Shown here piece after piece: positions 5,475 to 46,243 of a stretch of 64,000 nucleotides of DNA. The notes under the pieces are model-generated. The model was not told the origin of the DNA and did not search any database. It saw only the letters and a program-made list of their open reading frames with translations. A program made the translations under genes and the position numbers. The DNA is from Larkinella humicola. GTDB lineage: Bacteria > Bacteroidota > Bacteroidia > Cytophagales > Spirosomataceae. The stretch lies in the NCBI RefSeq assembly GCF_008727875.1, contig NZ_VTWS01000003.1, forward strand, positions 186,001 to 250,000. The letters run 5' to 3'. How positions within the stretch are numbered: the stretch's first letter is position 1; the number at the start of each line of letters is the position of its first letter.

Positions 5475-5496
5475 GAGTTTGTTTCTGAATGACTCC

Positions 5497-5526: not shown

Positions 5527-5533
5527 CCACCCA

Positions 5534-5705: not shown

Positions 5706-5738
5706 CACGTTGCTGGCCAAAATTGCAATTCGGAGAGA

Positions 5739-6545
5739 CTACAACCCGACGTGGTAGTCATACCCACGTTCGGCCCAGAAGTCGCGGGGGCGTTCGTCGC
5801 TGAACCAGAGGCTGCCGATGCGTTTCAGGTTTTTGACGCCGTATTTCACCGGAATAATCAGACGCAGGGGCGCGCCGTGCAGATCGGTCAGCGGCTGGTC
5901 GTTCATCTCGTAGGCCAGAATCGTTTGCGGATGCAGGGCGCTGGGCGTGTCGATGCCGACGTAATAGCCACCATCGGGCGTTTTCATGCCGACGTACGGA
6001 TACCACGCTTCCGAGCCGTCTTTCTGCCCCAACTGGTATTTTTTGGCAAATTCGGCAAAGTTCACCCCGCCCCAATGTTGAATCTGACTCCAGCCTTCGA
6101 TGCACTTGAACTCATAAATGATCTCCTGCCTGGGCAACGCTTTCAGCTCGTCGAGCGAAATCAACCGGGCTTTCCGGCCCGGTTGCTCCACTTTCAGTCG
6201 CCAGGCGTCTTTATCGATCGCGCTCCGCAAACCGTCCCGGCCATTCACCCGCACGTTTTTAACCGCCCAGTCTTTCGGAAACGTCGGTGCCAGATTTGCG
6301 TTGCTGAAATAGCCGTTGGCCACCTCTTCGTTCACCTTCAGCACTTCGCGGAACACCTTCGGCAACCCGGCTTCTTTGGGTTGGATCTTGATCCATTTCC
6401 AGAGGCTAAAGGGAATAACACCAGCCAGACCGAACAACGCAAACGCTTTCAGGGTCCGACGCCGGATCTGCTGGTCGGAGGTTAGCTCTTCGCGATGCGG
6501 CTTTTTTTCGGGAAGCTTTTCTTCGGTATCGTCAACAGTAGCCAT
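5739..6545 (-). CDS. Molybdopterin-dependent oxidoreductase, MsrP (YedY)/sulfite oxidase-fold
   Basis: A 268-residue protein with the sulfite-oxidase molybdopterin fold. Residues 28-50 carry an RRR motif followed by a hydrophobic segment, consistent with Tat export and probable anchoring. The molybdenum-ligating cysteine is Cys148 in FKCIEGWSQIQHWGG, the place of the conserved cysteine of E. coli MsrP. Further family features are the stretch ending in HGAPLRLIIPVKYG and a C-terminal region rich in aromatic residues. MsrP repairs oxidised methionine in envelope proteins, drawing electrons from the membrane haem protein MsrQ. Here the gene directly upstream (16 bp gap) encodes a membrane cytochrome b, which supports an electron-transfer pair. 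The substrate is inferred; a sulfite- or other S-oxide-acting enzyme is possible. Confidence 0.85.
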   Translation of the reverse strand: MATVDDTEEKLPEKKPHREELTSDQQIRRRTLKAFALFGLAGVIPFSLWKWIKIQPKEAGLPKVFREVLKVNEEVANGYFSNANLAPTFPKDWAVKNVRVNGRDGLRSAIDKDAWRLKVEQPGRKARLISLDELKALPRQEIIYEFKCIEGWSQIQHWGGVNFAEFAKKYQLGQKDGSEAWYPYVGMKTPDGGYYVGIDTPSALHPQTILAYEMNDQPLTDLHGAPLRLIIPVKYGVKNLKRIGSLWFSDERPRDFWAERGYDYHVGL

Positions 6546-6561
6546 AGTGGTTCAGGATTAG

Positions 6562-7254
6562 TCAGGCCGGGGTGGTCGGGGCTGGGGGCGTTTTTTCAGG
6601 CAGTTTCTTTTCGACTTCAAAACCGGTTACCATCGCCTGAAAATTGTTCCAGCCCGCCCGGACGACCTGAAAAATATGGATAACAAAAAACAGAACGTAG
6701 CCGATGGTCAGAATGAAATGCCACATCCGGGCGTTCTCGTAGCCGCCCGTCAAAGTCGTCAGTCCCGAAAACTGTGTGGGTTTGTAAATCGCCAAACCGG
6801 TTAGCAGCGAACCAATGCCCATTAGCAAAATGACCGTGTACGCAATCCGCTGCGCGCCGTTGTATTTCACCTGCGGAGGGGCGGTTTTTCGAATGCCCAG
6901 ATCATGCAATATTACCTGCCAGGCTTCCCGAAACGACCGTCGGTTGGGCAGCAAAAACCGCCATTCACCCGAAACAAAAGTATAGAGAACGTACAAAGCC
7001 CCGTTGATCGTGAACAGCCACATGAAAACAAAATGCCACGACATGCCCTCGGCCAGCCGCCGACGCAGGTTTAGGGCCTGAATAAACCAGTTCGGAAAAA
7101 ATTTGAACAGAACGGTATCGCCGATCTGGATTTTGTAGGGCTGGTAGGCCCAGTAGATCAGTAAACCGCTCCAGATCATGATGACCAGAATCGGGAAGTT
7201 GATCCAGTGAAACCAGCGGATCGCCAGCGGGTGTTTGTGGACGATTCGCTTCAT
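6562..7254 (-). CDS. Membrane cytochrome b (b561/Ni-Fe hydrogenase b-type) partner of the molybdoenzyme
   Basis: A 230-residue integral membrane protein with about four hydrophobic segments: LVIMIWSGLLIYWAY, a segment after MSWHFVFMWLF, TVILLMGIGSLLTGLAI and FILTIGYVLFFVIHIFQV. Likely haem-ligating histidines lie in AIRWFHWINF (His16), GMSWHFVF, RMWHFIL and FVIHIFQ. It belongs to the cytochrome b561/b-b6 superfamily rather than being a typical short MsrQ. It probably carries electrons from the quinone pool to the MsrP-like protein encoded 16 bp downstream. Its ATG overlaps the TGA of the S46 peptidase gene (ATGA, 7251-7254), so translation is likely coupled. The C-terminus ends in a short proline-rich tail. 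Confidence 0.85.
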   Translation of the reverse strand: MKRIVHKHPLAIRWFHWINFPILVIMIWSGLLIYWAYQPYKIQIGDTVLFKFFPNWFIQALNLRRRLAEGMSWHFVFMWLFTINGALYVLYTFVSGEWRFLLPNRRSFREAWQVILHDLGIRKTAPPQVKYNGAQRIAYTVILLMGIGSLLTGLAIYKPTQFSGLTTLTGGYENARMWHFILTIGYVLFFVIHIFQVVRAGWNNFQAMVTGFEVEKKLPEKTPPAPTTPA

Positions 7255-9416
7255 TTCCCGACGAGTTCTTTCACCAGCCGATCCGCTTTGTAGATGTAGC
7301 GCATCGCTGCCACAATAGCTCCGGTATTGACCGAAACCGTCCGGTTTTTATCGGGAACAAAAATGAAACTTCCCGGCAGGCTTTCCATGTTGCCGTCGAA
7401 AGCCAGCCCGACGGCTTCGCGGTTTTTGTTGATCAGCGGGCTGCCCGAATTGCCGCCAATGATGTCGTTCGTAGATACAAAACACATCGACTGACGCAGC
7501 AATTCGGCCGGGGGAGCCAGCCAGCGTTTGGGCAAGGCCCACGGAAATTTGCCGTTGAAGGAATAATACCGGTCGTATAGTCCGGCGAAAGTGGTTTGAT
7601 ACGGCGCAACAGTTCCGTTGTACGGAAATCCTTTTACGATGCCGTCGTTGATCCGCAGCGAGAACGTCGCGTCGGGCGGAATTCCGGTTCCGTAGACTTC
7701 ATACAACAGCCGCCCCAGGTTACTCCGCAACACCGTCTGCCGACCGGTAATGGCCTTCACGGCGGCTGATGCCTGCTGGTAGCGCGGCACCGAAATCCGC
7801 GACAGGGCCAGCAACGGATCGTTGTCGGCGCTGATGGCCGCCGGGCCTTTTGTCACCAGATCGTTCACGTAGCCCTGGTCGTTCAGTTTCGTATTGTTCA
7901 TCAAATAGGCAGCCGCTTCTTTGGGCGATTTGCCATTCAGGGCCGCTTTGATGTAGGGGTCGTCGTTGCCCAAAGCCGCCTGGGCTTCGGTCAGGTGAGC
8001 CGCCAGATAGGCTTCTTCCAGCGCCCGGTCGGTCAATTTAGGGGTTTGTAGCAACTCCTTGATCTGCTCGGCCCGACCGGGATTCTGGCGGGCCGCGTCG
8101 GCATACGTAATCAGCAAATGGGCAAATACCAGCAAATCCCCCCGCGCCAGTTCGCTGGGCGACAGGTAGGTATTGTCCTTATAGTATTTCCGTAGATCGC
8201 CCACGTTGGTGGCAATGTTGTCCCAGAGTTTCAGGTTGATATCGACCTTCGATCCGGCAGCGCCATTGGCCGCGTCGCTCTTCTGGCCGGAACCCGTACT
8301 CACTTTCGCCTGGCCGCGCCCGCCTTCCAGCCTCTGGGCGTCGGCTTTGAACTGCTGCTCGAAAGCGCCTTTCCGGGCCAGCAAATACGGATCGCGCAGG
8401 CCTTCCAACTGACCGCCGTAGGCTTTCAGGCTGTTTTCAAAACTGAAAATTTCGTTCTGGATGCTGTCGCTTTTCGCGGTGGCATTGTAAATCTGCAACG
8501 CATCGGCGCGGTTGCGGAGCAGTTGCAGGATGTACGGTATTTTCAGGTCGCGGTCGAATTCCAGTTCGGCCACGGTTTTCAGTCGCTCGGTGCTGCCCGG
8601 ATTCCCGGTTACAAAAACCGGTTCGTTTTCCTTGATCCCGTTGGGATTGAACTTGAAAAAATGCGTCGTTTTCAGCGGTTTTCCGTTGTCATAGACCCGA
8701 AAAAACGAAAAATCCAGGGCGTAGCGCGGATAGGTGAAGTTGTCGGGATCACCACCAAAAAAACCGAGTTGCAATTCGGGCATCAACACCAGCCGGACGT
8801 CGTTGTAGCGTTTGAAACCGTAGAGCGAATACCGCCCGCCGTTGTAGAACGTAATCGTTTGCAGTTCAAGGCCTTTCCATTCCGGCTGGCTACCAAATTC
8901 CTGCTTGATGGTTGCAAACTCCCGCTCGCGCATCTGCAGTTGTTCGGCTTCGGATTTTCCCAACGCCATCGCGGCCTGTATGCGGGTGGTGATGTCTTCG
9001 ATTTTCAGCAACTGATCGACGTACAGATTCTCCACTTTCCGTTCTTCGGCAAAGGTTTTGGCAAAAAAACCGGTGCTGTTCAGGTCTTCGCCTTTCCGCT
9101 GTACGCCCGTTCCCGACTCCCGCGCGCAGTGGTGATTGGTCATTACCAGACCATTCGCAGAAACGAACGACGCCGAGCAGTAATCGGCAAACCGTAGCGA
9201 TGCCAGCCGCACCTCGTCAAACCATTTCTGATCGGGTGTAAAACCGTATGTTTTCTGGAAATACTCCTGAGGTGGATTGTCGAACGTCCACATCTTGCCC
9301 ATATCGAACAGCCCGGCTTTCACCGTATCGGGGTTGAGTGTAGGTTGGGCAGAAGCCGTAAGTGAGCTAACGACCAAAAAAGTAGCCAGCAGAATTCTAA
9401 CAGAAGAATTTATCAT
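7251..9416 (-). CDS. S46 family dipeptidyl-peptidase (DPP7/DPP11 type)
   Basis: A periplasmic serine peptidase of about 721 residues that removes dipeptides from the N-terminus of oligopeptides, feeding amino-acid uptake in asaccharolytic and generalist Bacteroidota. The ATG at 9414-9416 is preferred over a TTG two codons upstream because it starts a clear signal peptide ending in LTASAQ. Catalytic features: TNHHCARESG near residue 95 (His) and GGNSGSPLIN (Ser). Eighteen residues after the nucleophile the sequence reads AFDGN, with glycine where DPP7 has Gly673 and DPP11 has Arg673. This predicts a DPP7-like preference for hydrophobic P1 residues (inference). A mid-protein Gly/Ser-rich stretch (GQAKVSTGSGQKSD) looks like an inserted linker. 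It overlaps the downstream cytochrome gene by 4 bp and follows NDH-2 by 40 bp. Confidence 0.93.
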   Translation of the reverse strand: MINSSVRILLATFLVVSSLTASAQPTLNPDTVKAGLFDMGKMWTFDNPPQEYFQKTYGFTPDQKWFDEVRLASLRFADYCSASFVSANGLVMTNHHCARESGTGVQRKGEDLNSTGFFAKTFAEERKVENLYVDQLLKIEDITTRIQAAMALGKSEAEQLQMREREFATIKQEFGSQPEWKGLELQTITFYNGGRYSLYGFKRYNDVRLVLMPELQLGFFGGDPDNFTYPRYALDFSFFRVYDNGKPLKTTHFFKFNPNGIKENEPVFVTGNPGSTERLKTVAELEFDRDLKIPYILQLLRNRADALQIYNATAKSDSIQNEIFSFENSLKAYGGQLEGLRDPYLLARKGAFEQQFKADAQRLEGGRGQAKVSTGSGQKSDAANGAAGSKVDINLKLWDNIATNVGDLRKYYKDNTYLSPSELARGDLLVFAHLLITYADAARQNPGRAEQIKELLQTPKLTDRALEEAYLAAHLTEAQAALGNDDPYIKAALNGKSPKEAAAYLMNNTKLNDQGYVNDLVTKGPAAISADNDPLLALSRISVPRYQQASAAVKAITGRQTVLRSNLGRLLYEVYGTGIPPDATFSLRINDGIVKGFPYNGTVAPYQTTFAGLYDRYYSFNGKFPWALPKRWLAPPAELLRQSMCFVSTNDIIGGNSGSPLINKNREAVGLAFDGNMESLPGSFIFVPDKNRTVSVNTGAIVAAMRYIYKADRLVKELVGK

Positions 9417-9456
9417 AGTCAATCATTGAAATCACGGGAATCATAGTAAGGCAATG

Positions 9457-10803
9457 TTAACCGATTTCATTCTTCATTACAAACTCTTCAGCGTCTTTGT
9501 CATCTTTTCTGACAAAAGGTCTGATGATCAGCCGGGTACCACGCTCGTAAGTAAACAGGCGGTAAATCCAGTTGCTCAGAACGACCAGTTTACTCCGAAA
9601 ACCGATGAGGTAATAAATATGCACAAACAGCCACGCCACCCACGCCACAAAACCGCTGAGGTGCAGATTGCCCGGCAAATCGGCGACGGCCCGAACGCGG
9701 CCAATGATGGCCAGCGAGCCTTTGTCAAAATAATCAAATGGGGTCATTTCCTCCTTGCGAATCAGTCGGCGCAGGTTTTTCGCCAGGTGCTGTCCCTGCT
9801 GAATCGCCGGTTGCGCCACGCCCGGATGCCCGTTCGGCCATTTTTCGGATTTCATAAAGGCAATGTCGCCAATGGCAAAAATATCGCTGTAGCCGACTAC
9901 CTGGTTGAATTCATTGACCGTTACGCGGCCCCCGCGCACAATGCTTTCTTTCGGCAACCCATCGATGAGCGCGCCCGTGACCCCAGCCGCCCACACGACC
10001 GTCTGCGACCGGATTTGCTCCCCGGTTTTGAGCGTCACCACGTCGCCGTCGTAGGAATCGACCAGGCTTTTCAGCTTGATGATCACGCCCATGTCTTCCA
10101 GGTATTTCTGCGTTTTGGCACTGGCTTCCGGCGACATCGGCGGCAAAACCCGCTCCAGCCCTTCCACCAGATAGATGTTCATCTTGCTGAAATCCAGACC
10201 CGGATAGTCGCCCGGCAGAACGTGTTTTCGCATTTCGGCCAGCGAACCCGCCATTTCGACGCCCGTTGGTCCGGCCCCGACAATCACGAAATTCAGCAAA
10301 CCTTCCCGGTTTTCGGGATCGACCGTAATGCTGGCCTGCTCAAACGACTGGAGCAACTGGCTGCGGAGGTTCAGTGCTTCGGGAATGGTTTTGAGCGAAA
10401 AAGAATATTTCTGAACCTGTTCATTCCCGAAAAAATTAGCCTTCGTTCCCGTCGCAATGACCAGATAATCGTAATGAAGATCGCCGATCAACGTCTTCAC
10501 GGTTTTTGCCACCGGATCGACGCCAAGAACCCGCACCAGCCGGAAGTGAAAATCCTCGTATTCTTCGTCGAACATCTTGCGGATTGGCTCGGCAATGGCG
10601 TCAGGCTCCAGCCCGGCGGTGGCCACCTGATAGAGCAGCGGCCAGAAACCGTGGTAGTTCTGTTTATCAAACATCACAATCTGAAAGTCTTTGCCGTTCA
10701 GCTTTTTCACCAGATTGAGCCCGCCAAAACCGCCACCGATGACGACCACCCGCGGTTTGGTTGTTTCGGGAATATTGAGTGAAAGCTTATCAAAATTCAG
10801 CAT
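9457..10803 (-). CDS. Type II NADH dehydrogenase (NDH-2-like NAD(P)/FAD-dependent oxidoreductase)
   Basis: A 448-residue flavoprotein that would oxidise NADH and pass electrons to menaquinone at the inner face of the membrane without pumping protons. Seen: the FAD-binding Rossmann motif VVVIGGGFGGLN (residues 19-30); the NDH-2 signature NYHGFWPLLYQVATAGL; a second nucleotide-binding motif NFVIVGAGPTGVEMAG near residue 170 for NADH; the flavin-contacting SDIFAIGDIA; the quinone-site-like GVAQPAIQQGQHLA; and a C-terminal membrane-associated segment FVAWVAWLFVHIYYLIG. It is the first gene of a same-strand run with the S46 peptidase, cytochrome b and MsrP-like genes, the last two also being redox proteins. 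Which NDH-2 paralogue this is cannot be judged from one window. Confidence 0.92.
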   Translation of the reverse strand: MLNFDKLSLNIPETTKPRVVVIGGGFGGLNLVKKLNGKDFQIVMFDKQNYHGFWPLLYQVATAGLEPDAIAEPIRKMFDEEYEDFHFRLVRVLGVDPVAKTVKTLIGDLHYDYLVIATGTKANFFGNEQVQKYSFSLKTIPEALNLRSQLLQSFEQASITVDPENREGLLNFVIVGAGPTGVEMAGSLAEMRKHVLPGDYPGLDFSKMNIYLVEGLERVLPPMSPEASAKTQKYLEDMGVIIKLKSLVDSYDGDVVTLKTGEQIRSQTVVWAAGVTGALIDGLPKESIVRGGRVTVNEFNQVVGYSDIFAIGDIAFMKSEKWPNGHPGVAQPAIQQGQHLAKNLRRLIRKEEMTPFDYFDKGSLAIIGRVRAVADLPGNLHLSGFVAWVAWLFVHIYYLIGFRSKLVVLSNWIYRLFTYERGTRLIIRPFVRKDDKDAEEFVMKNEIG

Positions 10804-10932: not shown

Positions 10933-13365
10933 ATGAAGTATTTCTTCCTGTTTTATTTTGTGTTTTTGATGGGCGGTTTTATCGCCCTCGCCCAGCCTTC
11001 TTCTTCCCGGTCCGTCGCGACGGTGAGCGGCTATGTGCGCGAAAAAGGGAGCAGCGAAGCCCTCATTGGCGTTAATGTCTACCTGCCCGGCACCCCAACC
11101 GGCACCGTTACCAACACCTACGGTTTTTATTCGCTAACCATTCCCATTCGGGATAGCCTGACCCTGTCGTTCTCGTTTGTGGGGTACGAAAGCAGTCAGG
11201 AAACGCTGGCGTTCCGGAAAAATACCGTGCTCGACGTTCAGTTGACGCCCGGTCGTTTGCTCTCTGAAGTGATCGTGACCGGCAATCGCAGCGAAGAAAA
11301 AGTGAGCGAAAGCCCGCAGATGAGTAAAATTGACGTTCCGGTGGCCCAAATCAAGAAAATACCGGCTTTTCTGGGCGAAAAAGACGTTCTGAAAGTGCTA
11401 CAACTCATGCCGGGCGTGCAGAAAGGCTCCGAAGGCAGCACCGGGATTTACGTGCGCGGGGGCGGCCCCGATCAGAACCTGATCATTGTCGATGATGCGA
11501 TTGTGTACAATGCCAACCACCTCTTCGGCTTTTTCTCGGTTTTCAACGGCGATGCCCTCAAGAGCGTGGAGCTGATCAAAGGCGGTTTTCCGGCGCGGTA
11601 TGGCGGGCGGCTGTCGTCGGTGATCGAAATGAACATGAAGGAAGGCAACAAGGAAAAACTCCACGGCGAAGGCGGCATTGGCCTGATTGCCTCCCGGCTG
11701 ACGCTGGAAGGGCCGCTGACCAAAAAGAAATCGGGGGCGGGGTCGTCGTCGTTTCTGGTGTCGGCCCGCCGGACGTACCTGGATTTTGTGGCCCGGCCCC
11801 TCATCAAACAGCAAACCGATGGGCAGATTGTGGCCGGATACTACTTCTACGATCTGAACGCCAAAGCCAATTACGACTTCGGACCCAAAAACAAGTTGTA
11901 CCTGAGCGGTTATTTCGGCCAGGACCGGTTTTATGTCGACGATCAGGAAACCGCCACCAAAATCAACCTCGACTGGGGTAACACCACGGCGACGCTCCGC
12001 TGGAATCACCTGTTTTCGCAACGGCTTTTTTCCAACCTCTCGCTGATTTTCAGCAATTACAAATTCCAGATTTCGTCGGACGAGCAGGATTTGCAAACGG
12101 CCGACCAGTTTTCGCTGCGCTACAGTTCCGGCATTCGGGATTTTTCGCTGAAATACGATGTCGATTATTATCCGTCTCCCCGGCATTCGATCCGGTTTGG
12201 TGTTCAGACCATTGCCCACCGGTTTACGCCCAGCGCGGTGGTTTTGCAAAATACGCTAATCAATCAGTTTACCACCCGAATCGACGCCATCGACGTCGTG
12301 GAATCCGGTTTATATGCCGAAGACAACTGGCGGCCCAACGAGCACTGGCGCATCAACGCCGGGATTCGGCTGAGCCATTTCATCCAGAAACAGGTGAATT
12401 ATGTCCGGCCCGAACCGCGCATTTCGGCGGCATACGTCATAAAACCGTCGCTGTCGGTCAAGGCGTCGTACGCGCTGATGAACCAGTATGTGCATCTGCT
12501 GTCCAATACGGGAATTGGTTTGCCGACCGATTTGTGGGTGCCGACCACCGATCAGGTAAAACCGCAGCAATCGCAGCAGGTGGCCGTCGGCATCGCCAAA
12601 GATTTTGCCGACAAAGGCACAACCCGCGGACTGACGCTGACCGTGGAAGGGTATTACAAGACGATGAACAACATCATCAATTACCGCGAAGGAGCCAGCT
12701 TTCTGCTGATCAACAGCCCGGAATCGGCTAATCAGGTGCGCTGGGAAGACAACGTGACGGCTGGCAAAGGCTGGTCGTATGGCGCGGAGGTTTTGTTGCA
12801 AAAGAAACTGGGGCGGTTTACGGGCTGGACCGGCTACACGCTGTCGTGGACGCAGTGGCAGTTTCCGGAACTGAATTTCGGAAAGAAGTTTTACCCCCGC
12901 TACGACCGGCGGCACGACATTTCGGTGGTCGGGATTTACGAAATCAATCCGCGCATTACGCTCTCGGGAACCTGGGTCTACGGAACCGGCAATGCGCTGA
13001 CGGTTCCGCTGGCGAAATACCAGGCCGCAACACACCAGGTCAATCCGATTGTCAACAACGACAACTCGTTCATCAACCAGTTTTTCAGCTACGGCCGGGC
13101 CGTGAACGACTACAGCGAGAAGAACAGTTTTCGGGCCGAGGCTTACCACCGCATGGATATTGGTATCCAGTTTCACAAGAAAAAACGACACCACGAGCGT
13201 ACCTGGGAGGTCAGCGTCTATAACCTCTACAACCGCCGAAATCCGTTTTTCTACCAACTGAACACGGTGACGAACGAACAGACCAACCAGCCGACCAAAA
13301 CGGTTTTTCAACGCTATTCCGTATTCCCGATTGTTCCATCGGTTACCTACGGCTTTAAATTTTAA
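10933..13365 (+). CDS. TonB-dependent receptor with carboxypeptidase-like N-domain, tandem copy 1
   Basis: An 810-residue outer-membrane receptor. Seen: a signal peptide ending in GGFIALAQ; a CarboxypepD_reg-like domain (about 30-115; EALIGVNVYLPGT, NTYGFYSLTIP); the switch ELIVTGN-like sequence EVIVTGNRSEE; a plug domain (about 135-225; GVQKGSEGSTGIYVRGGG, DDAIVYNANHLFGFFS, GGFPARYGGRLSSVIE); and a 22-strand-type barrel ending in aromatic YGFKF, the usual outer-membrane C-terminus. It is shorter than SusC proteins and has no SusD partner. Instead a DUF4249 lipoprotein gene follows after 6 bp. Two paralogous pairs follow at 14527 and 18006. The ligand is unknown. A stretch around 11540-11812 is almost identical in DNA to copy 2, more so than the flanks. 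Confidence 0.93.
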   Translation: MKYFFLFYFVFLMGGFIALAQPSSSRSVATVSGYVREKGSSEALIGVNVYLPGTPTGTVTNTYGFYSLTIPIRDSLTLSFSFVGYESSQETLAFRKNTVLDVQLTPGRLLSEVIVTGNRSEEKVSESPQMSKIDVPVAQIKKIPAFLGEKDVLKVLQLMPGVQKGSEGSTGIYVRGGGPDQNLIIVDDAIVYNANHLFGFFSVFNGDALKSVELIKGGFPARYGGRLSSVIEMNMKEGNKEKLHGEGGIGLIASRLTLEGPLTKKKSGAGSSSFLVSARRTYLDFVARPLIKQQTDGQIVAGYYFYDLNAKANYDFGPKNKLYLSGYFGQDRFYVDDQETATKINLDWGNTTATLRWNHLFSQRLFSNLSLIFSNYKFQISSDEQDLQTADQFSLRYSSGIRDFSLKYDVDYYPSPRHSIRFGVQTIAHRFTPSAVVLQNTLINQFTTRIDAIDVVESGLYAEDNWRPNEHWRINAGIRLSHFIQKQVNYVRPEPRISAAYVIKPSLSVKASYALMNQYVHLLSNTGIGLPTDLWVPTTDQVKPQQSQQVAVGIAKDFADKGTTRGLTLTVEGYYKTMNNIINYREGASFLLINSPESANQVRWEDNVTAGKGWSYGAEVLLQKKLGRFTGWTGYTLSWTQWQFPELNFGKKFYPRYDRRHDISVVGIYEINPRITLSGTWVYGTGNALTVPLAKYQAATHQVNPIVNNDNSFINQFFSYGRAVNDYSEKNSFRAEAYHRMDIGIQFHKKKRHHERTWEVSVYNLYNRRNPFFYQLNTVTNEQTNQPTKTVFQRYSVFPIVPSVTYGFKF

Positions 13366-13371
13366 CCGGTT

Positions 13372-14340
13372 ATGATGCTTCGTTTGTCATCTTTTTCTGT
13401 ACTGCTGCTGCTGGTTATGATGGCCTGTCAGAATCTGGTGGCTGAAATTGACCCCAGCAAACTGCCGCCCATCGACCGCAAGCTGGTGGTGAACGGTTAT
13501 TTGTCGCCCCAGGATACGGTGCTGGCGGTATCGGTTTCGAGTTCGCAGACGGTTTTGGGCGACATCGTCACCGACTCGGTCAATACGGTTCGGGAAGCCA
13601 CCGTTCGCATAGCCAGTGAAGGAAAAACCGTGACCCTGGTTTTCGACCCGGCGTTGCGGGTATATACCGCCGACGTGCGGCAGTTGCCGGTTTTGGTGGG
13701 AAAAACGTACACGCTTCAAGTCGGCGCACCGGGTTTTGAAACCGTCTCCAGTTCCTGTACGATTCCGGCCAACATACCGGTTTCCGAACTAAGACTCGAT
13801 TCCTCCCAATCCTACGTTGGGCCGGGTCTTGCCCCCATCTGGCAGTACAACGTCCGGGCGATCTGGCAGGACCCGGCGGGTCAGACCAATTATTACCGGG
13901 TGGCTGGTTACGGCGAGTGCCTCAATTGGCCGCCCCGCTTCCCGGAAGCCCACATTGACACCACCGGGTCCAAAGTGCTGATGCGGGGACTCATCGGTTT
14001 TGGCCGACAGGATCAATACATTTCCGACCAGAATCAGGATGGGCAATTGCTATTGTCGGTGCGGGGCGACGTGCCTCTGAACTTCGATTATTCGTACTAT
14101 GACAGCACCCGACAGAGGACGTACGCCGGAAGTTATGCATTTTCAAAACCGCTGACCATTCGGGTGTCGGTTTTGCAGGTTGATGAAAATTATTTTACCT
14201 ACCACCGGGCGCGCCAGCAGCAACGCCAATCGCAGAACAATCCGTTTGCCGAGCCGGTGTTGATGCCCACCAACATTCAGGGTGGTCTGGGTTGCTTCGG
14301 GGCATACAACCGTTCGACGTTAGTGAAGATTGTGAAATGA
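13372..14340 (+). CDS. DUF4249 domain lipoprotein, tandem copy 1
   Basis: A 322-residue lipoprotein: a hydrophobic signal ends in the lipobox VMMAC followed by QN. The body is predicted beta-rich (DRKLVVNGYLSPQDTVLAVSVSSSQ, TVRIASEGKTVTLVF, LPVLVGKTYTLQVG). It ends with the family's conserved tail NPFAEPVLMPTNIQGGLGCFGAYNRS. DUF4249 proteins are repeatedly encoded beside TonB receptors in Bacteroidota. Their function is not established; a surface or periplasmic partner that helps capture ligand, by analogy with SusD, is inference. It starts 6 bp after the receptor gene and so is surely co-transcribed. The central part (GYGECLNWPPRFPEAHID) differs completely from copies 2 and 3. Confidence 0.88.
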   Translation: MMLRLSSFSVLLLLVMMACQNLVAEIDPSKLPPIDRKLVVNGYLSPQDTVLAVSVSSSQTVLGDIVTDSVNTVREATVRIASEGKTVTLVFDPALRVYTADVRQLPVLVGKTYTLQVGAPGFETVSSSCTIPANIPVSELRLDSSQSYVGPGLAPIWQYNVRAIWQDPAGQTNYYRVAGYGECLNWPPRFPEAHIDTTGSKVLMRGLIGFGRQDQYISDQNQDGQLLLSVRGDVPLNFDYSYYDSTRQRTYAGSYAFSKPLTIRVSVLQVDENYFTYHRARQQQRQSQNNPFAEPVLMPTNIQGGLGCFGAYNRSTLVKIVK

Positions 14341-14342
14341 TA

Positions 14343-14414
14343 GGAACGCGGATTGAACAGATTTGTACAGATAAAATCCGTTTTGATCCGTTCCATCCGC
14401 CGAATCCGCGTTCC
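14343..14414. repeat. Hairpin repeat, family A copy 2
   Basis: Arms GGAACGCGGATT (from 14343) and AATCCGCGTTCC (to 14414) are perfectly complementary over 12 bases and continue imperfectly inward (AGAT against ATCC). The interior contains ATAAAATCCG as in copy 1 at 3124-3220. It begins directly after the stop codon of the first DUF4249 gene and may also stop transcription between pairs 1 and 2. Confidence 0.7.
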
Positions 14415-14526
14415 GATCCCCTGGTTAAAGCCTGTTCTTAAAAAGAGTTAATTTCCAACCTTTCCACACTTTTTTATCTCCTTCATCGTATACGGATTGA
14501 AGCATTTTCATTTGTACACAAAAACG

Positions 14527-16950
14527 ATGAAACACTCGCTACTGTCTCTATTCATTTTCTTCTTTTCTGATTTGCCGGCCTGGGCGCAAAAACCGGCCAG
14601 CCGTTTCACCGTAAGCGGGTATGTCCGTGAAAAAGGGAGTCAGGAAGCCCTGATCGGCGTCAACATTTATCTGCCCGGCACCTCGACGGGAACCGTCACC
14701 AACACCTATGGCTTTTACTCCCTAACCCTTCCGGCGGAGGACAGCGTCACGCTGGCTTTTTCGTTCGTCGGCTACGAATCCGTGCAGCAAACCGTTGCTT
14801 TCCGGCGAAACGTTGAATTGAACATTCAGCTAACACCCGGTCGGGTGCTCTCGGAAGTGACCGTTACCGGCAATCGTACGGGCGAGGAGAAAGTCAGTGA
14901 AAGCGCCCGGATGAGCACCATCGATGTGCCGATTAACCAGATCAAGAAAATACCGGCTTTTCTGGGCGAGAAAGACGTGCTGAAAGTGCTGCAACTGATG
15001 CCGGGCGTGCAGAAAGGCTCCGAAGGCAGCACCGGGATTTACGTCCGTGGGGGCGGCCCCGACCAGAATCTGGTGATCATGGACGATGCCGTGGTCTACA
15101 ACGCCAACCACCTGTTCGGCTTCTTCTCGGTTTTCAACGGCGATGCCCTCAAGAGCGTCGAACTGATCAAAGGCGGTTTTCCAGCGCGGTATGGCGGGCG
15201 GCTGTCGTCGGTGATCGAGATGAACATGAAGGAAGGCAACAAGGAAAAGCTCCACGGCGAAGGCGGCATTGGCCTGATTGCCTCCCGGCTGACGCTCGAA
15301 GGGCCATTGACCAAAAAGAAATCGGGGGCGGGGTCGTCGTCGTTTCTGGTGTCGGCCCGCCGGACGTACCTGGATATTGTGGCCCGGCCCCTCATCAAGC
15401 AGCAATCCAACGGGGAGACGATGGCGGGTTATTACTTCTATGATCTGAATGCCAAAGCCAATTACGATTTCGGTCCGAAAAATAAACTCTATCTGAGCGG
15501 TTATTTCGGCCAGGACCGGTTTTACGCCAATGACAAAAAAGAAGGAACGAACATTGGGCTGAACTGGGGGAATGCCACGGCTACCTTGCGGTGGAATCAT
15601 CTTATTTCCGAAAAAGCCTTCTCCAATACCTCGCTCATTTTCAGCAATTACAAATTTCAGATTTCATCCGATGAGTTGAATTTTCAGGACCAGGAGGCCT
15701 TTTCGCTACGCTACCGTTCGGGTATCCGGGATTTTTCGATCAAGCACGACGTTGATTTTTATCCGTCTCCCCAGCATTCAATCCGGTTTGGTGTCCAGAG
15801 TACGTTTCACCGGTTTACGCCCAGCGCCGTGGTGTTGAAAAATACGGACATCAACCAGTTTAAACAGGAAGTGGACGCCATCGATGTCCTGGAGTCGGGA
15901 CTGTACGCGGAAGATAACTGGCGACCAAACAGCCGCTGGCGCATTAATGGGGGCCTGCGACTGAGCCATTTTGTGCAGAAGCAGGTGAATTATTTCCGGC
16001 CCGAACCGCGCCTTTCGGCGGCATACATCCTTAAGCCCAGTTTGTCGGTCAAGGCATCGTATGCGCTCATGAACCAGTATGTGCATTTGCTTTCCAACAC
16101 CGGAATCGGGTTGCCGACTGATTTGTGGGTGCCGACCACGGATCGCGTTAAACCGCAGCAGTCGGAACAAATCGCGGTTGGAATTGCCAAAGATTTTGCG
16201 GATAAAGGCGCCACCCGGGGGCTGACCCTGACCGTGGAAGGCTATTACAAAACGATGAATAACATCATTAACTACCGCGAAGGCGCCAGCTTTTTATTGC
16301 TCAATGATCCCACCTCGGCCGAAAAAGTGCGGTGGGAAGATAACGTAACCCGTGGGAAAGGCTGGTCGTACGGAGCGGAAGTGTTGTTACAGAAGAAGGT
16401 CGGCCGGTTTTCCGGCTGGGTGGGTTATACGCTGTCGTGGACGCAGTGGCAGTTTGCCGAATTAAACTTTGGCCAGAAATTCTTCCCCCGTTATGACCGG
16501 CGGCACGATGCGTCCATCGTCGGGATTTATGAACTTAGTCCGCGCATCACGCTTTCGGGAACCTGGGTGTACGGCACCGGCCAGGCCCTGACTGTCCCCA
16601 CCAGCCACTACCAGGCCGTTACGCACCAGCCCCTGTACGACCCCTACTTCGGCAATGGGACGCCGTATCTGAATTTAGGCCGTCAGGTCGACGAATATGG
16701 CACCCAGAAGAACAGTTTCCGGGCCGAACCGTATCACCGCATGGATTTAAGTGTTCAGGTTCACAAAAAGAAAAAGCACCACGAACGTACCTGGGAATTC
16801 AGCGTCTATAACCTCTATAACCGCCGAAACCCTTTTTTTTACGGGCTTGGATCAAAGTCGCAGGGAGAAGGGCAACCGACCAAAACGGTCTTATACCGGT
16901 ATTCCGTTTTCCCCGTTGTGCCATCGATCAGTTACAACTTCAAGTTCTGA
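14527..16950 (+). CDS. TonB-dependent receptor with carboxypeptidase-like N-domain, tandem copy 2
   Basis: An 807-residue close paralogue of the receptor at 10933, sharing most of its sequence end to end. The ATG at 14527 is chosen over an upstream TTG because it opens a normal signal peptide ending in LPAWAQ. Seen: a carboxypeptidase-regulatory domain (EALIGVNIYLPGT), EVTVTGNRTGEE, a plug (GVQKGSEGSTGIYVRGGG, GGFPARYGGRLSSVIE) and a barrel ending YNFKF. The regions that differ most from copy 1 are loops such as AGYYFYDL...YANDKKEGTNIG and the segment before the last strands (TSHYQAVTHQPLYDPYFG). These are the likely surface loops, which suggests different ligand specificity (inference). It is followed after 7 bp by its own DUF4249 gene. 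The 186 bp upstream hold a hairpin repeat and presumably a promoter that I could not define. Confidence 0.93.
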   Translation: MKHSLLSLFIFFFSDLPAWAQKPASRFTVSGYVREKGSQEALIGVNIYLPGTSTGTVTNTYGFYSLTLPAEDSVTLAFSFVGYESVQQTVAFRRNVELNIQLTPGRVLSEVTVTGNRTGEEKVSESARMSTIDVPINQIKKIPAFLGEKDVLKVLQLMPGVQKGSEGSTGIYVRGGGPDQNLVIMDDAVVYNANHLFGFFSVFNGDALKSVELIKGGFPARYGGRLSSVIEMNMKEGNKEKLHGEGGIGLIASRLTLEGPLTKKKSGAGSSSFLVSARRTYLDIVARPLIKQQSNGETMAGYYFYDLNAKANYDFGPKNKLYLSGYFGQDRFYANDKKEGTNIGLNWGNATATLRWNHLISEKAFSNTSLIFSNYKFQISSDELNFQDQEAFSLRYRSGIRDFSIKHDVDFYPSPQHSIRFGVQSTFHRFTPSAVVLKNTDINQFKQEVDAIDVLESGLYAEDNWRPNSRWRINGGLRLSHFVQKQVNYFRPEPRLSAAYILKPSLSVKASYALMNQYVHLLSNTGIGLPTDLWVPTTDRVKPQQSEQIAVGIAKDFADKGATRGLTLTVEGYYKTMNNIINYREGASFLLLNDPTSAEKVRWEDNVTRGKGWSYGAEVLLQKKVGRFSGWVGYTLSWTQWQFAELNFGQKFFPRYDRRHDASIVGIYELSPRITLSGTWVYGTGQALTVPTSHYQAVTHQPLYDPYFGNGTPYLNLGRQVDEYGTQKNSFRAEPYHRMDLSVQVHKKKKHHERTWEFSVYNLYNRRNPFFYGLGSKSQGEGQPTKTVLYRYSVFPVVPSISYNFKF

Positions 16951-16957
16951 AAATCGT

Positions 16958-17887
16958 ATGAAAAACTGTATCGCTGTTTTGTGTTGCCTGAGCGGCCTGA
17001 TAGCCTGCGAAAGTCTGAAGCAGGAAGTGGACCCCGCCCTGATCAAAACCGAAACCGAGAAGATTGTCGTAGCCTGCTTCATTGCTCCTCAGGATACGGT
17101 ATTGACGGCGGAAGTCTCTCTGTCTAGACCGGTTCTGGGCGAAAATATCGGTTACGACAAGCGGGTGAGCAACGCAACCATTACCCTTTCAGATGGCGTT
17201 CGCTCGATTGTTTTCAATCGCCGTAACGGACAATACCAGGGACAATACTACTACGGAGCCGATCCGAAGAAGTTTCCGGTTGTCGCTGGTCAACGCTATA
17301 CGCTGACCGTCCAAATCCCCGATGGGCGGAAAGTTGAAGCGGTTTGCACCGTTCCGAAGGCGGTTGTTCCCCGAGAAGTGGTACTGGATTCGATCCCAAC
17401 GTTCGAGAATGGATTTTCCGGTAAAGACTATTTTGTGCGCTTAACCTGGCAGGATCCGGCGGGGGAAGAAAATTTTTACCGGGTTGCCGGTACACTCCAT
17501 TATTTACCGATCCGGCCTAATTATCCCAATGCGCCCGAACCCCAGTGGCAGTCTACCTTGGTCGATTATCGTCGGAACACAGAAACCCGCGACCTGACGG
17601 ACGACCGGCAACGCGATGGCGAAATGCTGAGCTCAGCACGCGGTTTTCTGGGAATTTTCGGAGGCCGTCAACAAATCCTGTTCCAGTATGCCCAACGCGC
17701 CTATTGTACCATCGATCTGCTCCATGTCGATGCCAATTATTATCAGTATCAGGAAGCCGTTCTACGCCAGAGCCAAACCGGTGACAATCCCTTTGCCGAG
17801 CCAGTTTTGGTTCCCACCAACATCCAGGGCGGTCTGGGCTGCTTCGGTGCCTACAACCGCTCGACGATTACGGCTACCCTAAAATAA
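16958..17887 (+). CDS. DUF4249 domain lipoprotein, tandem copy 2
   Basis: A 309-residue lipoprotein starting at the ATG 7 bp after the receptor stop. The frame is open further upstream inside the receptor gene, but only this start gives a signal peptide with lipobox LIAC. The mature part begins ESLKQEVDP and then follows the family pattern: IVVACFIAPQDTVLTAEVSLSRPVLGE, a beta-rich middle, FYRVAGTLHY, and the conserved ending NPFAEPVLVPTNIQGGLGCFGAYNRST. The sequence between the VAGTLHY strand and the C-terminal motif (RPNYPNAPEPQW...) has no counterpart in copy 1. It probably works with the receptor encoded just upstream; its molecular role is unknown. Confidence 0.88.
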   Translation: MKNCIAVLCCLSGLIACESLKQEVDPALIKTETEKIVVACFIAPQDTVLTAEVSLSRPVLGENIGYDKRVSNATITLSDGVRSIVFNRRNGQYQGQYYYGADPKKFPVVAGQRYTLTVQIPDGRKVEAVCTVPKAVVPREVVLDSIPTFENGFSGKDYFVRLTWQDPAGEENFYRVAGTLHYLPIRPNYPNAPEPQWQSTLVDYRRNTETRDLTDDRQRDGEMLSSARGFLGIFGGRQQILFQYAQRAYCTIDLLHVDANYYQYQEAVLRQSQTGDNPFAEPVLVPTNIQGGLGCFGAYNRSTITATLK

Positions 17888-17941
17888 GCACGGCTACGCA
17901 TCCAAAACCGGGCGGTTTTCGTACACAGCAATACGAAACCA

Positions 17942-17975
17942 TTGCATCGACATTGTCCGATAAATCGTATCTTGG
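17942..17975 (+). promoter_or_regulatory. Possible promoter of receptor pair 3
   Basis: TTG (17942-17944), 23 nt, then TATCTTGG (17968-17975), one base off TAnnTTTG. Transcription would begin near 17981, about 25 nt before the receptor ATG at 18006. The spacer is at the long end of the accepted range, so this is only suggestive. Confidence 0.35.
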
Positions 17976-18005
17976 GTAACTGATTTATCACCAACGTGCT
18001 GCCGG

Positions 18006-20483
18006 ATGAAACGCCTGCTTAGCGTGCTGTGCCTGCTTGTTTCCGGCTTCAGCAGTCCGGGGCAGGATCGGCATACTGTCAGCGGTACGGCTTATGAAGA
18101 AGGCCGTGGCAATCCGCTGGCAGGCGTCAACGTTTACACGCCCAACCGAACAGCAGGTACCACAACTGATCTGAACGGTTTTTTCACCCTGACCCTCCCG
18201 GGTAACGACAGTCTGACGCTGGTTTTCTCTTCCGTAGGCTATCAGACGGTAACAAGAACCGTCTCTCTCCGAAGCGCGCAGCAACTAGTGGTTTTTCTGC
18301 CAATTGGGCAAACGTTGCGGGAATTAACGGTTCGTTCTGGAATGAATCAGCCGGTCATCAGCCGCATTCCGCAAATGAGCCAGCTCAGTATTTCGGGTCA
18401 CCAAATCGAAAGAATACCGGCTTTGCTGGGCGAAAAGGACATTTTGCGGGTTTTACAACTCCTGCCGGGGGTACAGAAAGGTTCCGAAGGCACTACCGGA
18501 ATTTATGTGCGCGGGGGTGGTCCCGACCAAAACCTGATTCTCCTCGACGATGCGGTACTCTACAATTCCGGCCATTTGCTGGGCTTTTTTTCGGCGTTCA
18601 ACGGCAGCGTCGTCCGGAACATCGAACTGACCAAAGGCGGTTTTCCGGCGCGGTATGGCGGACGGCTGTCGTCGGTCATCGAAGTGACGACGAAGGAGGG
18701 CAATACGGAAAAACGGGCTGGAGAGGCCAGTCTGGGGCTGGTGGCTTCGCGCCTGCTGCTGGAAGGGCCGCTCGGCAAAAAACAGTCGGCGAAACACCCG
18801 GCCACCTTCCTGATTGCAGGTCGGCGAACTTACATCGATCTCGTCACCCGCCCGTTTGCCGCTTCCTCCCAATCGCAATCTCCCCGGAACACCACCTATT
18901 TTTACGATTTGAATGCCCGGTTGAACTACCGATTGAACCGCAAAGATCAGGTGTTCCTAAGCGGTTATTGGGGCCGGGATGCATTTTCCAACCGCCAGCA
19001 GTCTGGCAATAGCCCGTTGCAGGGAAGCCTTACCTGGCGCAACACAACGGGAACGCTCCGCTGGAATCACGCGGTCTCCGACCATTGGTTGGCCAATCTC
19101 TCGCTCGTTTACAATCAATACCGCCTGGCGGTTGCCAACGAAAGCGGCAGTCGCGATACATCGGCTTTGCGGTATTCACTCCGGTACCGCTCCGGAATTC
19201 GGGATCTGTCGCTGAAATACGCCGTCGACTATTTTCCGGAAAACCACCACTTTCGGTTCGGATTCCAAAGCACGCAACACCGGTTTACCCCCGGAGCCGT
19301 GGTGACAACGGGCGATGTCGACCCAGCCACACCACGCCTGTACATTGACGTGCTGGAATCGGGGCTGTACGCTGAAGATACCTGGAAACCGGCTTCCCGC
19401 TGGAACCTGAATGCCGGTTTTCGGCTCAGCCATTTCTTGCTGCTCCGAACGGGTTCGGTTGGCGGAAAGTCGGTCGAGCGACCCGAGGTTCCCGGACAGC
19501 GCACGGGCCGACCGATTCAGTATTTCCGGCCCGAACCCCGGCTATCGATGGCCTACCAGATCGATAGCACCACCGCGCTGAAAGTGTCGTGTGCACTGAT
19601 GACGCAGTATACGCACCTGTTGTCGAACAACGGCATCGGTTTGCCCGCCGACCTCTGGATCCCGACCACCGACCGGATTCGTCCGCAACAGGCCCAACAG
19701 ATTGCCATCGGTTTAGCGAAAGACTTTATTCGGCCCGAAAAAACCGCCCGAAACCTGACGCTGACACTCGAAGGGTATTACAAACGCCTGAAAAACAGCA
19801 TCAGTTACACCGAAGGGGCGAGTTTCCTGACCACCGAAGCTACGCAGACCGCCGAGGCCAAACCCTGGGAAAGCAACATTACGGCCGGCCGGGGCTGGGC
19901 CTATGGGAGCGAAATTCTTTTGCAGAAAAAAACCGGGCGGTTTTCCGGCTGGGCGGGCTACACGCTTTCCTGGACGTGGTGGCAGTTTCCGGCCCTGAAT
20001 GGGGGCGTGAAATTTCATCCGCGCTACGACCGTCGCCACGATGCCTCGCTGGTGGGTCTCTATGAACTCAAACCCGGCATCACGCTTTCAGGAACCTGGG
20101 TCTACGGAACCGGACAGGCACTGATGTTGCCCATTTCCCGGTTTTCCGGTTACGAAAACCGACCAACTTCCGCGGTGAACTCCGGCAATCCGCAACAGCA
20201 GTTGTTCGGAACGGCACCCAATGTCAAGGAATACGGCCCGCGAAACGGATTTCGGGCGGAGGCTTATCACCGGCTGGATGTCGGTTGCCGGTTTCACAAA
20301 CAGCGAAAACACCACACCCGAACCTGGGAAATCGGGGTTTACAACCTGTATAACCGCCGGAATCCCTTTTACTATTCGCTGGAAGGCAAAGACCAGGGGG
20401 CGGGCAAGCATTCCAAAAGCGTGCTGTACAAATATTCACTTTTCCCGGCAGTTCCGTCGGTCAGTTATACGGTTTCATTTTGA
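18006..20483 (+). CDS. TonB-dependent receptor with carboxypeptidase-like N-domain, tandem copy 3
   Basis: An 825-residue receptor, the most diverged of the three tandem copies. Seen: a short signal peptide ending SSPGQ; a carboxypeptidase-regulatory domain (NPLAGVNVYTPNRTAGTTTDLNG); ELTVRSG in the linker; a plug (GVQKGSEGTTGIYVRGGG, DDAVLYNSGHLLGFFS, GGFPARYGGRLSSVIE); a barrel with several loops longer than in copies 1 and 2, for example the stretch GSVGGKSVERPEVPGQRTG; and a terminal YTVSF. The plug is conserved while the loops are not, as expected for duplicated importers with separate ligands. It is followed after 10 bp by the third DUF4249 gene. A weak promoter match precedes it. Confidence 0.92.
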   Translation: MKRLLSVLCLLVSGFSSPGQDRHTVSGTAYEEGRGNPLAGVNVYTPNRTAGTTTDLNGFFTLTLPGNDSLTLVFSSVGYQTVTRTVSLRSAQQLVVFLPIGQTLRELTVRSGMNQPVISRIPQMSQLSISGHQIERIPALLGEKDILRVLQLLPGVQKGSEGTTGIYVRGGGPDQNLILLDDAVLYNSGHLLGFFSAFNGSVVRNIELTKGGFPARYGGRLSSVIEVTTKEGNTEKRAGEASLGLVASRLLLEGPLGKKQSAKHPATFLIAGRRTYIDLVTRPFAASSQSQSPRNTTYFYDLNARLNYRLNRKDQVFLSGYWGRDAFSNRQQSGNSPLQGSLTWRNTTGTLRWNHAVSDHWLANLSLVYNQYRLAVANESGSRDTSALRYSLRYRSGIRDLSLKYAVDYFPENHHFRFGFQSTQHRFTPGAVVTTGDVDPATPRLYIDVLESGLYAEDTWKPASRWNLNAGFRLSHFLLLRTGSVGGKSVERPEVPGQRTGRPIQYFRPEPRLSMAYQIDSTTALKVSCALMTQYTHLLSNNGIGLPADLWIPTTDRIRPQQAQQIAIGLAKDFIRPEKTARNLTLTLEGYYKRLKNSISYTEGASFLTTEATQTAEAKPWESNITAGRGWAYGSEILLQKKTGRFSGWAGYTLSWTWWQFPALNGGVKFHPRYDRRHDASLVGLYELKPGITLSGTWVYGTGQALMLPISRFSGYENRPTSAVNSGNPQQQLFGTAPNVKEYGPRNGFRAEAYHRLDVGCRFHKQRKHHTRTWEIGVYNLYNRRNPFYYSLEGKDQGAGKHSKSVLYKYSLFPAVPSVSYTVSF

Positions 20484-20493
20484 AGACAAGGGT

Positions 20494-21390
20494 ATGAAAA
20501 AGTGTGGATGGCTTATTGGTATTTTGGGGTTGGTTTCCTGCCAGAATCTGCGGCAGGAAGTGCAACCGCAGCAACTGGCGGCCCAGCCGGTCAAACTGCT
20601 GGTAGCCTGTTTTATTTCGCCCCAGGACACCGTGCTGGCGGCCAAAGTGGCGCGCTCCCGCCCGATTCTGGACGATGGAACCGTGACCAGTCTGGAGATT
20701 ACCAACGCAACCGTGACCCTAAAAGCCGGTTCCCGTAGCATCGTCTTGACCTATCATTCCCGGCTCCGCTATTACCGGGCTTCTCCGAACCAGTTTCCGA
20801 TTCGGGCCGGAGAGACGTACCAGTTGAGCGTGCAAACGCCGGATGGACAATCGGTGGAAGCCCGCACCACCGTACCGGAAGCGGTTGCGTTGCAGCAGGT
20901 TCGGCTGGATTCGGAAGTGGTTCTGGAAAACAAACAGGTGCGAAAACGGTTTTTTGCGCGGTATATCTGGTACGACCGTTCCGGACAACCCGATTATTAT
21001 CAAACGGAAGGAACCATCACCTATCGCTGTGCCGGTTGTGCGCCCGACAAGACCATTCGCGAACCGGTTCAGTTTACTGGAAATCAGGGGTTGTATACCA
21101 ATCAGGAAAGCAAGGGCGGGCGGATGGTTTCTGATCCTGGCTACCTGGGCGTTTCCATTCCGTCCAATCAGCCTTTTTTCCCGACGCTGTTCAGTAAACC
21201 GTTGGTGCTGACAGCCGATTTACGGCATATCAATGAGGATTATTACCGGTATCATCTGGCGTTAGGGCAACAGCAGGAAGTTGAAAGCAATCCGTTTGCA
21301 GAACCTGTACCGATTCCGACCAACATCCGGGGCGGTTTGGGTTGCTTCGGCGCGTACAGCCGTTCGACTCTGACGGTTAGACTGGATTAA
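20494..21390 (+). CDS. DUF4249 domain lipoprotein, tandem copy 3
   Basis: A 298-residue lipoprotein with lipobox LVSC followed by QNLRQEVQP. The open frame extends upstream into the receptor gene, but the ATG at 20494 is the one that gives a signal peptide. Family features: KLLVACFISPQDTVLAAKVARSRPILDDG near the start and NPFAEPVPIPTNIRGGLGCFGAYSRST at the end. Unlike the other two copies, its variable middle contains a CAGC (CxxC) motif after GTITYR, which could bind a metal or form a disulfide. The stop codon is immediately followed by a perfect 33-bp hairpin. The function is inferred only from pairing with the receptor. Confidence 0.87.
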   Translation: MKKCGWLIGILGLVSCQNLRQEVQPQQLAAQPVKLLVACFISPQDTVLAAKVARSRPILDDGTVTSLEITNATVTLKAGSRSIVLTYHSRLRYYRASPNQFPIRAGETYQLSVQTPDGQSVEARTTVPEAVALQQVRLDSEVVLENKQVRKRFFARYIWYDRSGQPDYYQTEGTITYRCAGCAPDKTIREPVQFTGNQGLYTNQESKGGRMVSDPGYLGVSIPSNQPFFPTLFSKPLVLTADLRHINEDYYRYHLALGQQQEVESNPFAEPVPIPTNIRGGLGCFGAYSRSTLTVRLD

Positions 21391-21457
21391 ACGCCAAAAC
21401 ATCGCAATACCTGTCAGGTTTTGGAAACCTGACAGGTATTGCGATGTTTTGGCGTTT
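21389..21457. terminator. Perfect 33-bp hairpin between convergent genes
   Basis: The arms 21389-21421 and 21425-21457 are perfect inverted repeats of 33 bases around a 3-base loop TGG, with centre CAGGTTT-TGG-AAACCTG. The left arm begins inside the TAA stop of the third DUF4249 gene. No clear U-tract follows on either strand, so it is not a standard intrinsic terminator, but its position suggests a two-way transcription stop. Such AACCTGACAGGT palindromes may be repeated elsewhere in the genome. Confidence 0.65.
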
Positions 21458-46227: not shown

Positions 46228-46243
46228 TTAAAACTATCTCACG

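Follow-up and report, generated by a model that had tools for sequence, protein, structure and literature searches.

Described outer-membrane uptake systems that combine a TonB-dependent transporter and a partner protein include SusC/SusD and RagA/RagB, BtuB/BtuG, XusA/XusB and, in Bacteroides thetaiotaomicron, BT2172/BT2173. The SusD-like family is surface-exposed and the SusD fold is helical and based on tetratricopeptide repeats; BtuG is a beta-propeller. The present analysis deals with an array of three tandem units in Larkinella humicola, found in a stretch of 64,000 nucleotides (hereafter the window; positions 186,001–250,000 of contig NZ_VTWS01000003.1), each unit consisting of a gene for a TonB-dependent receptor (R1, R2, R3) and one for a lipoprotein of the DUF4249 family (L1, L2, L3). 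Each unit is probably a two-part outer-membrane uptake complex in which the DUF4249 protein would capture the ligand and/or serve as a lid, and the units would be long-standing paralogues.

BT2172/BT2173 comprises a TonB-dependent transporter and a DUF4249 protein, and PMC11003636 (2024) already proposes the partner role, states that the BT2172-type transporter subfamily almost always adjoins DUF4249, reports similar consequences of disrupting BT2172 or BT2173 and cites a preprint on lids. Within the literature searched, DUF4249 and BT2172/BT2173 were mentioned in this paper only, and no paper joining Larkinella with TonB-dependent systems was found. The partner hypothesis that an initial annotation of the window had drawn from gene pairing is therefore sound but not new, and its remark that the function of DUF4249 is not established holds for ligand and structure but less for the partner role. 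As in B. thetaiotaomicron, a DUF4249 gene adjoins the transporter gene in Larkinella, directly after it in all three units; the array differs in its three tandem units, and the likeness is one of gene pairing, not of direct sequence comparison with BT2172.

With SusC/SusD and RagA/RagB the array shares a lipoprotein gene placed directly after the receptor gene and a carboxypeptidase-like domain before the plug, but family and fold differ. R1, R2 and R3 score 58.8, 63.9 and 51.0 bits on the SusC/RagA model TIGR04056, far below its cut-off of 368.25, whereas a SusC encoded elsewhere in the window (42688–46227) reaches 641.8 bits in the same scan; likewise, L1–L3 match DUF4249 only and no SusD family of Pfam, whereas the window protein at 46244–47806 is SusD-like_2 (274.2 bits). 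The AlphaFold2 (AF2) model of L1 (Table 1) is mainly beta, and its best resemblances in the PDB are partial ones to fibronectin type III (FNIII)/immunoglobulin (Ig)-like and macroglobulin-type proteins; template modelling (TM) scores are at most 0.34 among the 50 Foldseek matches listed of 1724 (E <=10), and neither the helical SusD fold nor a beta-propeller of the BtuG/XusB kind occurs among these 50. The likeness to SusC/SusD is therefore one of layout only, and the term SusC/SusD-like in the initial annotation is a loose one. BtuB/BtuG and XusA/XusB resemble the array in joining a smaller TonB-dependent transporter to a lipoprotein, which in the array, too, would lie at the surface, and BtuB3G3 chains match the model of R1 and L1 described below; the difference lies in the propeller, the fold given for XusB in PMC13142918. 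A solved relative of DUF4249 was not found by sequence search, and the best profile match to a solved protein, the centromeric histone CSE4 (E 0.008), was taken as chance.

Receptor and lipoprotein pairing

The initial annotation placed three receptor/lipoprotein units head to tail at 10933–21390, which proved correct: all six genes lie on the + strand (Table 1), with receptor-to-lipoprotein gaps of 6, 7 and 10 bp and spacers of 129 bp before R1, 186 bp before R2 and 118 bp before R3. R2 was taken to start at the ATG at 14527, the mechanical open reading frame (ORF) beginning with a TTG at 14497. Each receptor (807–825 amino acids) is composed of the Pfam domains CarbopepD_reg_2, Plug and TonB_dep_Rec_b-barrel, and L1, L2 and L3 score 148.6, 141.0 and 123.1 bits on PF14054 (DUF4249) against a gathering cut-off of 28.5. 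The lipobox cysteine, Cys19 of L1, is invariant in an alignment of 105 sequences, and the lipobox pattern is present in 206 of 214 non-redundant receptor/DUF4249 pairs.

Table 1. Features of the array and its surroundings (window coordinates; types A–C are those of the trees).
Feature	Position	Strand	Description	Basis or remark
R1	10933-13365	+	TonB-dependent receptor, N-terminal carboxypeptidase-regulatory-like domain, type A, unit 1	ORF, Pfam, trees
L1	13372-14340	+	DUF4249 lipoprotein, type A partner	ORF, Pfam; AF2 predicted local distance difference test (pLDDT) 90.1, predicted TM score (pTM) 0.85
R2	14527-16950	+	TonB-dependent receptor, type B, unit 2	ORF, Pfam, trees
L2	16958-17887	+	DUF4249 lipoprotein, type B partner	Pfam, trees
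R3	18006-20483	+	TonB-dependent receptor, type C, unit 3	ORF, Pfam, trees
L3	20494-21390	+	DUF4249 lipoprotein, type C partner	Pfam, trees
R1 codons 196-255	11518-11697	+	Plug end and first barrel strands	More alike among neighbours within a genome than between genomes
R2 matching stretch	15109-15288	+	About codons 195-254	Placed by alignment offset
Hairpin	21402-21444		Hairpin, both arms 20 bp and perfectly paired	Between the array and the DAHP synthase gene

In the L. humicola genome 11 DUF4249 proteins exceed the cut-off; by coordinates, ten of them are encoded directly after the ten best matches of R1 (R1 included), whereas the eleventh has another DUF4249 before it. Of the 117 receptor match rows, 101 others, at E 7e-21 and weaker, are not followed by a DUF4249. 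The phylum sample comprised 118 genomes, 77 of them with a DUF4249 match, from which 120 regions were drawn out of the listed matches in order of strength as far as E 2e-8, leaving aside 11 lower entries of the list and every unlisted match; matches in the L. humicola genome were counted apart. These regions hold 130 DUF4249 genes: 109 directly 3' of a same-strand receptor, eight after another DUF4249 and 13 after neither. Counted from the receptor side, DUF4249 comes next in 73 of 80 R1 relatives (the best 80 of at least 589 confirmed), the profiles for both families having been built from the same loci later counted with them. The 214 non-redundant pairs have a median gap of 5 bp, with 202 falling within -20 to 50 bp, although starts were picked near the receptor end, which biases towards short gaps. 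Adjacency of receptor and DUF4249 exceeds chance, and the partner role assigned earlier from gene pairing is upheld: a partnership is strongly supported as far as gene order can indicate it, most DUF4249 genes lying directly after a receptor and not away from receptors.

History and divergence of the three units

At this locus three units occur in seven of nine Larkinella genomes (that of L. humicola included), two in G001 and one in G006; the three of G007 are spread over two contigs. Flanking genes for NDH-2 and 3-deoxy-D-arabino-heptulosonate 7-phosphate (DAHP) synthase are both present in seven genomes (L. humicola, G001–G004, G006 and G008), the NDH-2 flank only in G005 and the DAHP synthase flank only in G007. 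Units C and D of G005 (L017, G005:C11:681001-699000) have no DAHP synthase gene after them, which suggests a rearrangement of the locus; unit 1 sits 9–11 kb from the other two units in G005 and G008. In Spirosoma (L032, L035) these two flanks enclose one or two units, and one of the flanks is also present in Fibrella (L033) and Fibrivirga (L036).

Receptor and lipoprotein trees both split into four types, A to D, and each pair is inherited as a type. Types A (unit 1) and C (unit 3 here) occur in eight of the nine genomes each; type B comprises unit 2 here and those of G007 and G006, and type D is found in five genomes that lack B. Lid swapping between units is unsupported, as the types agree in the two trees. 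Type C joins an unlinked copy on contig 16 of the same genome (lipoproteins 97/95; receptors 100/99, with a long-branch warning), and when the tree is rooted with three other genera the type C group falls outside a cluster of A, B, D and the units of the Spirosoma group, with a support of 86 that does not reach the threshold. Because units are present at the locus across the genus and type C groups with the unlinked copy, the array appears to consist of old paralogues kept together and not of a recent triplication. The local duplication suggested in the initial annotation is thus upheld only in part, since unit 3 groups with the unlinked copy and not with units 1 and 2.

In trees that include Spirosoma, Fibrella and Fibrivirga, the lipoproteins of type A join those of D (99/96), with A+B rejected (p 0.0005) and A+B+D not rejected (p 0.248), whereas the receptors give A+B (71/71) with A+D not rejected (p 0.228); the receptor data reject a group of B, C and the unlinked copy (p 0.020), which the lipoprotein data do not (p 0.305). 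There is some tension between the two trees and no clear conflict.

Codons 196–255 of R1, a stretch chosen after the windows had been viewed, depart from this sorting by type. Third-position identity between the unit-1 receptor and the B or D receptor is 86.7% within genomes and 71.9% between genomes in the six of nine genomes that have a complete unit-1 receptor and a complete B or D receptor; among 720 pairings the true one alone reaches the within-genome identity, and in five of the six the closest partner is the one from the same genome. When 32 windows of 25 codons are taken, the true pairing is equalled or exceeded by only 3, 3 and 2 of 720 in windows 151–175, 201–225 and 226–250, and by 7 in window 751–775; for six more windows the number is 22–55 and for the remainder at least 68. 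Over codons 256–575 pooled, identity is 54.4% within and 52.9% between genomes (28 of 720 pairings as high). The absence of a general within-genome excess across windows counts against shared codon preference. A DNA tree of codons 196–255 pairs receptors by genome in G003 (87/86), G005 (98/99) and G002 (88/82), those of G000 and G008 not resolving, and a tree of codons 256–580 sorts them by type, except for the two B receptors, which do not resolve. In L. humicola the R1/R2 similarity extends to about codon 300 (92% in window 251–275, 88% in window 276–300). Wholesale homogenisation of the receptors was rejected, as trees sort by type and not by genome; the simplest reading of codons 196–255 would be recurrent gene conversion between neighbouring receptors, by which the conserved plug end was apparently copied. 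A limited literature search, judged by title, found no report of such conversion in receptors of this kind. In G007, contigs L021 (G007:C245, 3023 bp) and L020 (G007:C57) end inside the unit-2 receptor, as would be expected if assembly is confused by nearly identical sequence shared between adjacent receptors.

The units have diverged unevenly. Receptor identity is 79.8% for R1/R2, 53.7% for R1/R3 and 54.8% for R2/R3, and lipoprotein identity 35.1% for L1/L2, 33.8% for L1/L3 and 41.2% for L2/L3. The lipoproteins are identical in all three copies at 68 of 322 L1 positions, 24 of which fall in the last 40 residues, where the initial annotation had recognised the tail NIxGGLGCFGAYxRS. Its observation that the plug is conserved and the probable surface loops differ also holds: with loops that we assigned from the DSSP line of the model that joins R1 and L1, R1 and R2 differ at 6/113 plug positions and 69/203 predicted extracellular-loop positions (28/53 in loop L10, 13/37 in loop L11, 4/4 and 5/6 in the short loops L3 and L4), and elsewhere at 44/320 strand, 24/94 carboxypeptidase-like and 9/44 periplasmic-turn positions. 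Within type A, loops vary at 35/203 positions in seven genomes. The R1/R2 receptor distance is 0.20 and the L1/L2 lipoprotein distance 0.65, whereas 21 comparisons outside Larkinella at receptor distances of 0.15–0.25, non-independent because they share sequences, give lipoprotein distances of 0.27–0.59. The unevenness is extreme for the family, though lipoproteins evolve faster family-wide, their distance exceeding that of the receptors in every bin above 0.05 (213 pairs), and likewise in the 184 pairs outside Larkinella; a limited literature search found no report of uneven divergence of this type. Conversion combined with divergence is the part of these results that deserves a specialist's second look.

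The difference between units 1 and 2 in lipoproteins and receptor loops, mainly L3, L4, L10 and L11, is most likely due to different ligands; divergence of both would fit units with distinct specificities, and it is plausible that the array, as the initial annotation held, broadens the ligand range. An alternative for the evolutionary side, considered possible though somewhat doubtful and compatible with a lid, is ordinary retention of paralogues with unchanged ligand, the lipoproteins being weakly constrained and the plug kept by purifying selection. Faster lipoprotein change across all distance bins and outside Larkinella agrees with it, as does a plug protein with only six differences between units 1 and 2. 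This alternative does not sit well with third-position similarity that in windows 151–175, 201–225 and 226–250 exceeds the between-genome level in receptors of one genome and falls to a slight excess over codons 256–575, nor with loops that vary half as much within type A as between R1 and R2.

Models and competing explanations

In the explanation preferred here, a two-part complex, the receptor would be a TonB-dependent one of the small-ligand kind; the DUF4249 lipoprotein, exposed at the surface, would capture the ligand and/or close the receptor mouth as a lid, import would then be driven by TonB, and the three units would be long-standing paralogues held at one locus in Larkinella. As R1 and L1 are in frame across the stop codon, they were modelled as a single read-through chain (1114 residues; alignment of 58 rows, 25 paired), with a pLDDT of 83.5 and a pTM of 0.80, a result that the linker could bias. 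This pTM is higher than the value of about 0.65 estimated by hand for an unplaced lid, which speaks for a preferred lid placement. The 50 Foldseek matches listed for the chain include the siderophore and vitamin transporters PfeA, FepA, FhuA, BtuB and BtuB3G3, and SusC/RagA is absent among them.

DUF4249 might instead be a surface binding protein in its own right, or an enzyme or adhesin, that is co-produced with the receptor and passes the ligand on without forming a stable complex; this is judged unlikely. The partial Ig/FNIII/macroglobulin-like matches of the L1 model, none to SusD, would suit such a protein, as would the DUF4249 genes that stand alone and those that follow a single receptor in groups of two to four in L140, L142 and L149, which would be unusual if each receptor had exactly one lid; however, DUF4249 genes often adjoin receptors, and closely, the read-through pTM suggests a preferred placement, and the similar disruption effects of BT2172 and BT2173 given in PMC11003636 indicate joint function, though not a complex.

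Several observations weigh against the preferred explanation. Docking of the lid on the receptor is our inference from a model of the cognate pair as a single chain, and the ORFs at the loci covered include no receptor–DUF4249 gene fusion. A direct-coupling scan of 213 pairs (effective number of sequences 159) gave inter-protein scores above six shuffles at ranks 5–60 but not at rank 1; the top inter-protein couplings are scattered and include signal peptides, which makes the scan unusable for contacts, and the top couplings inside L1 are unlike strand pairs. Thirteen of the 130 DUF4249 genes have no adjoining receptor (nine lie behind another gene, four behind an opposite-strand gene), and seven of the 80 R1-related receptors have no DUF4249 next to them, the sequence ending about 600 bp past the receptor in two of these (L098 and L110). 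The tail motif was rejected as a marker of receptor docking, a loose NI..G being found in 9/13 unpaired and 60/109 paired DUF4249 proteins (an NPF-like tail pattern in 7/13 and 18/109). Type D receptors also vary in their loops, at 61/203 positions in five genomes, so loop change is not limited to change of type, and over codons 196–255 the receptors of G004 are not most alike within their genome (75% vs 78%). Finally, the acidic signal after the lipobox cysteine (+1) is weak (D/E in 56% at +2, 29% at +3 and 18% at +4), so that surface export of DUF4249 is a point we infer. The same lack of a strong acidic export signal would suit a periplasm-facing lipoprotein that aids receptor folding or couples the receptor to other envelope parts, but this is very improbable, the SusD-like protein of the window, whose family is surface-exposed, being similar after the cysteine (CDKGFEEMN, against CESLKQEVD in L2).

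Neighbouring genes and wider significance

The S46 peptidase and NDH-2 genes beside the array are on the opposite strand. The array is followed by the hairpin (Table 1) and then by a DAHP synthase/chorismate mutase gene in convergent orientation; the hairpin core CCTGTCAGGTTT...AAACCTGACAGG occurs at five places in the genome (none for a reversed control). A scan of the window with Rfam gave no match above the gathering score. Sigma-70-like sites are fewer than in shuffles (2 vs 6.0); sites like TAnnTTTG, the Bacteroidota promoter box, were seen upstream of R1 and R3 and not of R2, in a count made without comparison to chance. Elsewhere in the window, the SusC of the SusC/SusD-like pair (42688–47806) has an N-terminal FecR_C-like stretch (24.2 bits, cut-off 24.4), and 33127–37389 encodes a hybrid two-component regulator of 1420 amino acids with propeller repeats, kinase, receiver and AraC-type domain.

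The R1 relatives with no DUF4249 following are L096, L098, L099, L101, L103, L104 and L110; from their names, the organisms of L096, L098, L101 and L110 are taken to be Chitinophagaceae, and an ORF near the receptor in L096, L099 and L104 presumably encodes a threonyl-tRNA synthetase, which its first residues resemble. Among DUF4249 genes not immediately preceded by a receptor (L170, L172, L174, L195, L199, L216, L217), neighbours encode a sigma factor (L172, L195), a SpoU methylase (L199), a FecR-type protein (L217) and a phosphoesterase (L174), and six of the seven proteins keep an NPF-like and NI..G tail. Ten genes after other pairs gave no consistent ligand clue (MG2, DUF4159, thiamin pyrophosphokinase, histidine kinase, PEGA, two without family); thiamin pyrophosphokinase and DUF4159 genes directly after pairs (L180 5821–6480, L203 5832–6494, L228 4263–4937) are possible ligand hints, inconsistent across the family. 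A gene for about 800 amino acids follows DUF4249 in L140, L142 and L145, with an MG2 domain in L145, the only one scanned. Two to four consecutive DUF4249 genes lie behind single receptors in L140, L142 (G107:C9:137795-152248, 4911–9667) and L149, those of G107 having a different tail (CVDCTLRGTNKxPxFW-like), and two lie behind one receptor on contig 15 of L. humicola (L026); the possibility that a single receptor has a choice of lids would merit attention.

A bolder and quite tentative extension is that of a shared chassis with a diversifying lid: conversion would keep the plug end uniform in each genome, lids and a few outer loops would diverge towards their own ligands, and elsewhere one receptor would be served by several alternative lids. 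As no solved DUF4249 relative was found by sequence and the model is unlike SusD, solving one would probably bring another type of lid to light. In a genome with 117 TonB receptor match rows, part of receptor specificity may lie in little-studied partner lipoproteins, and arrays with alike receptors and diverging partners may offer a natural experiment on the features of the partner that set the choice of ligand.

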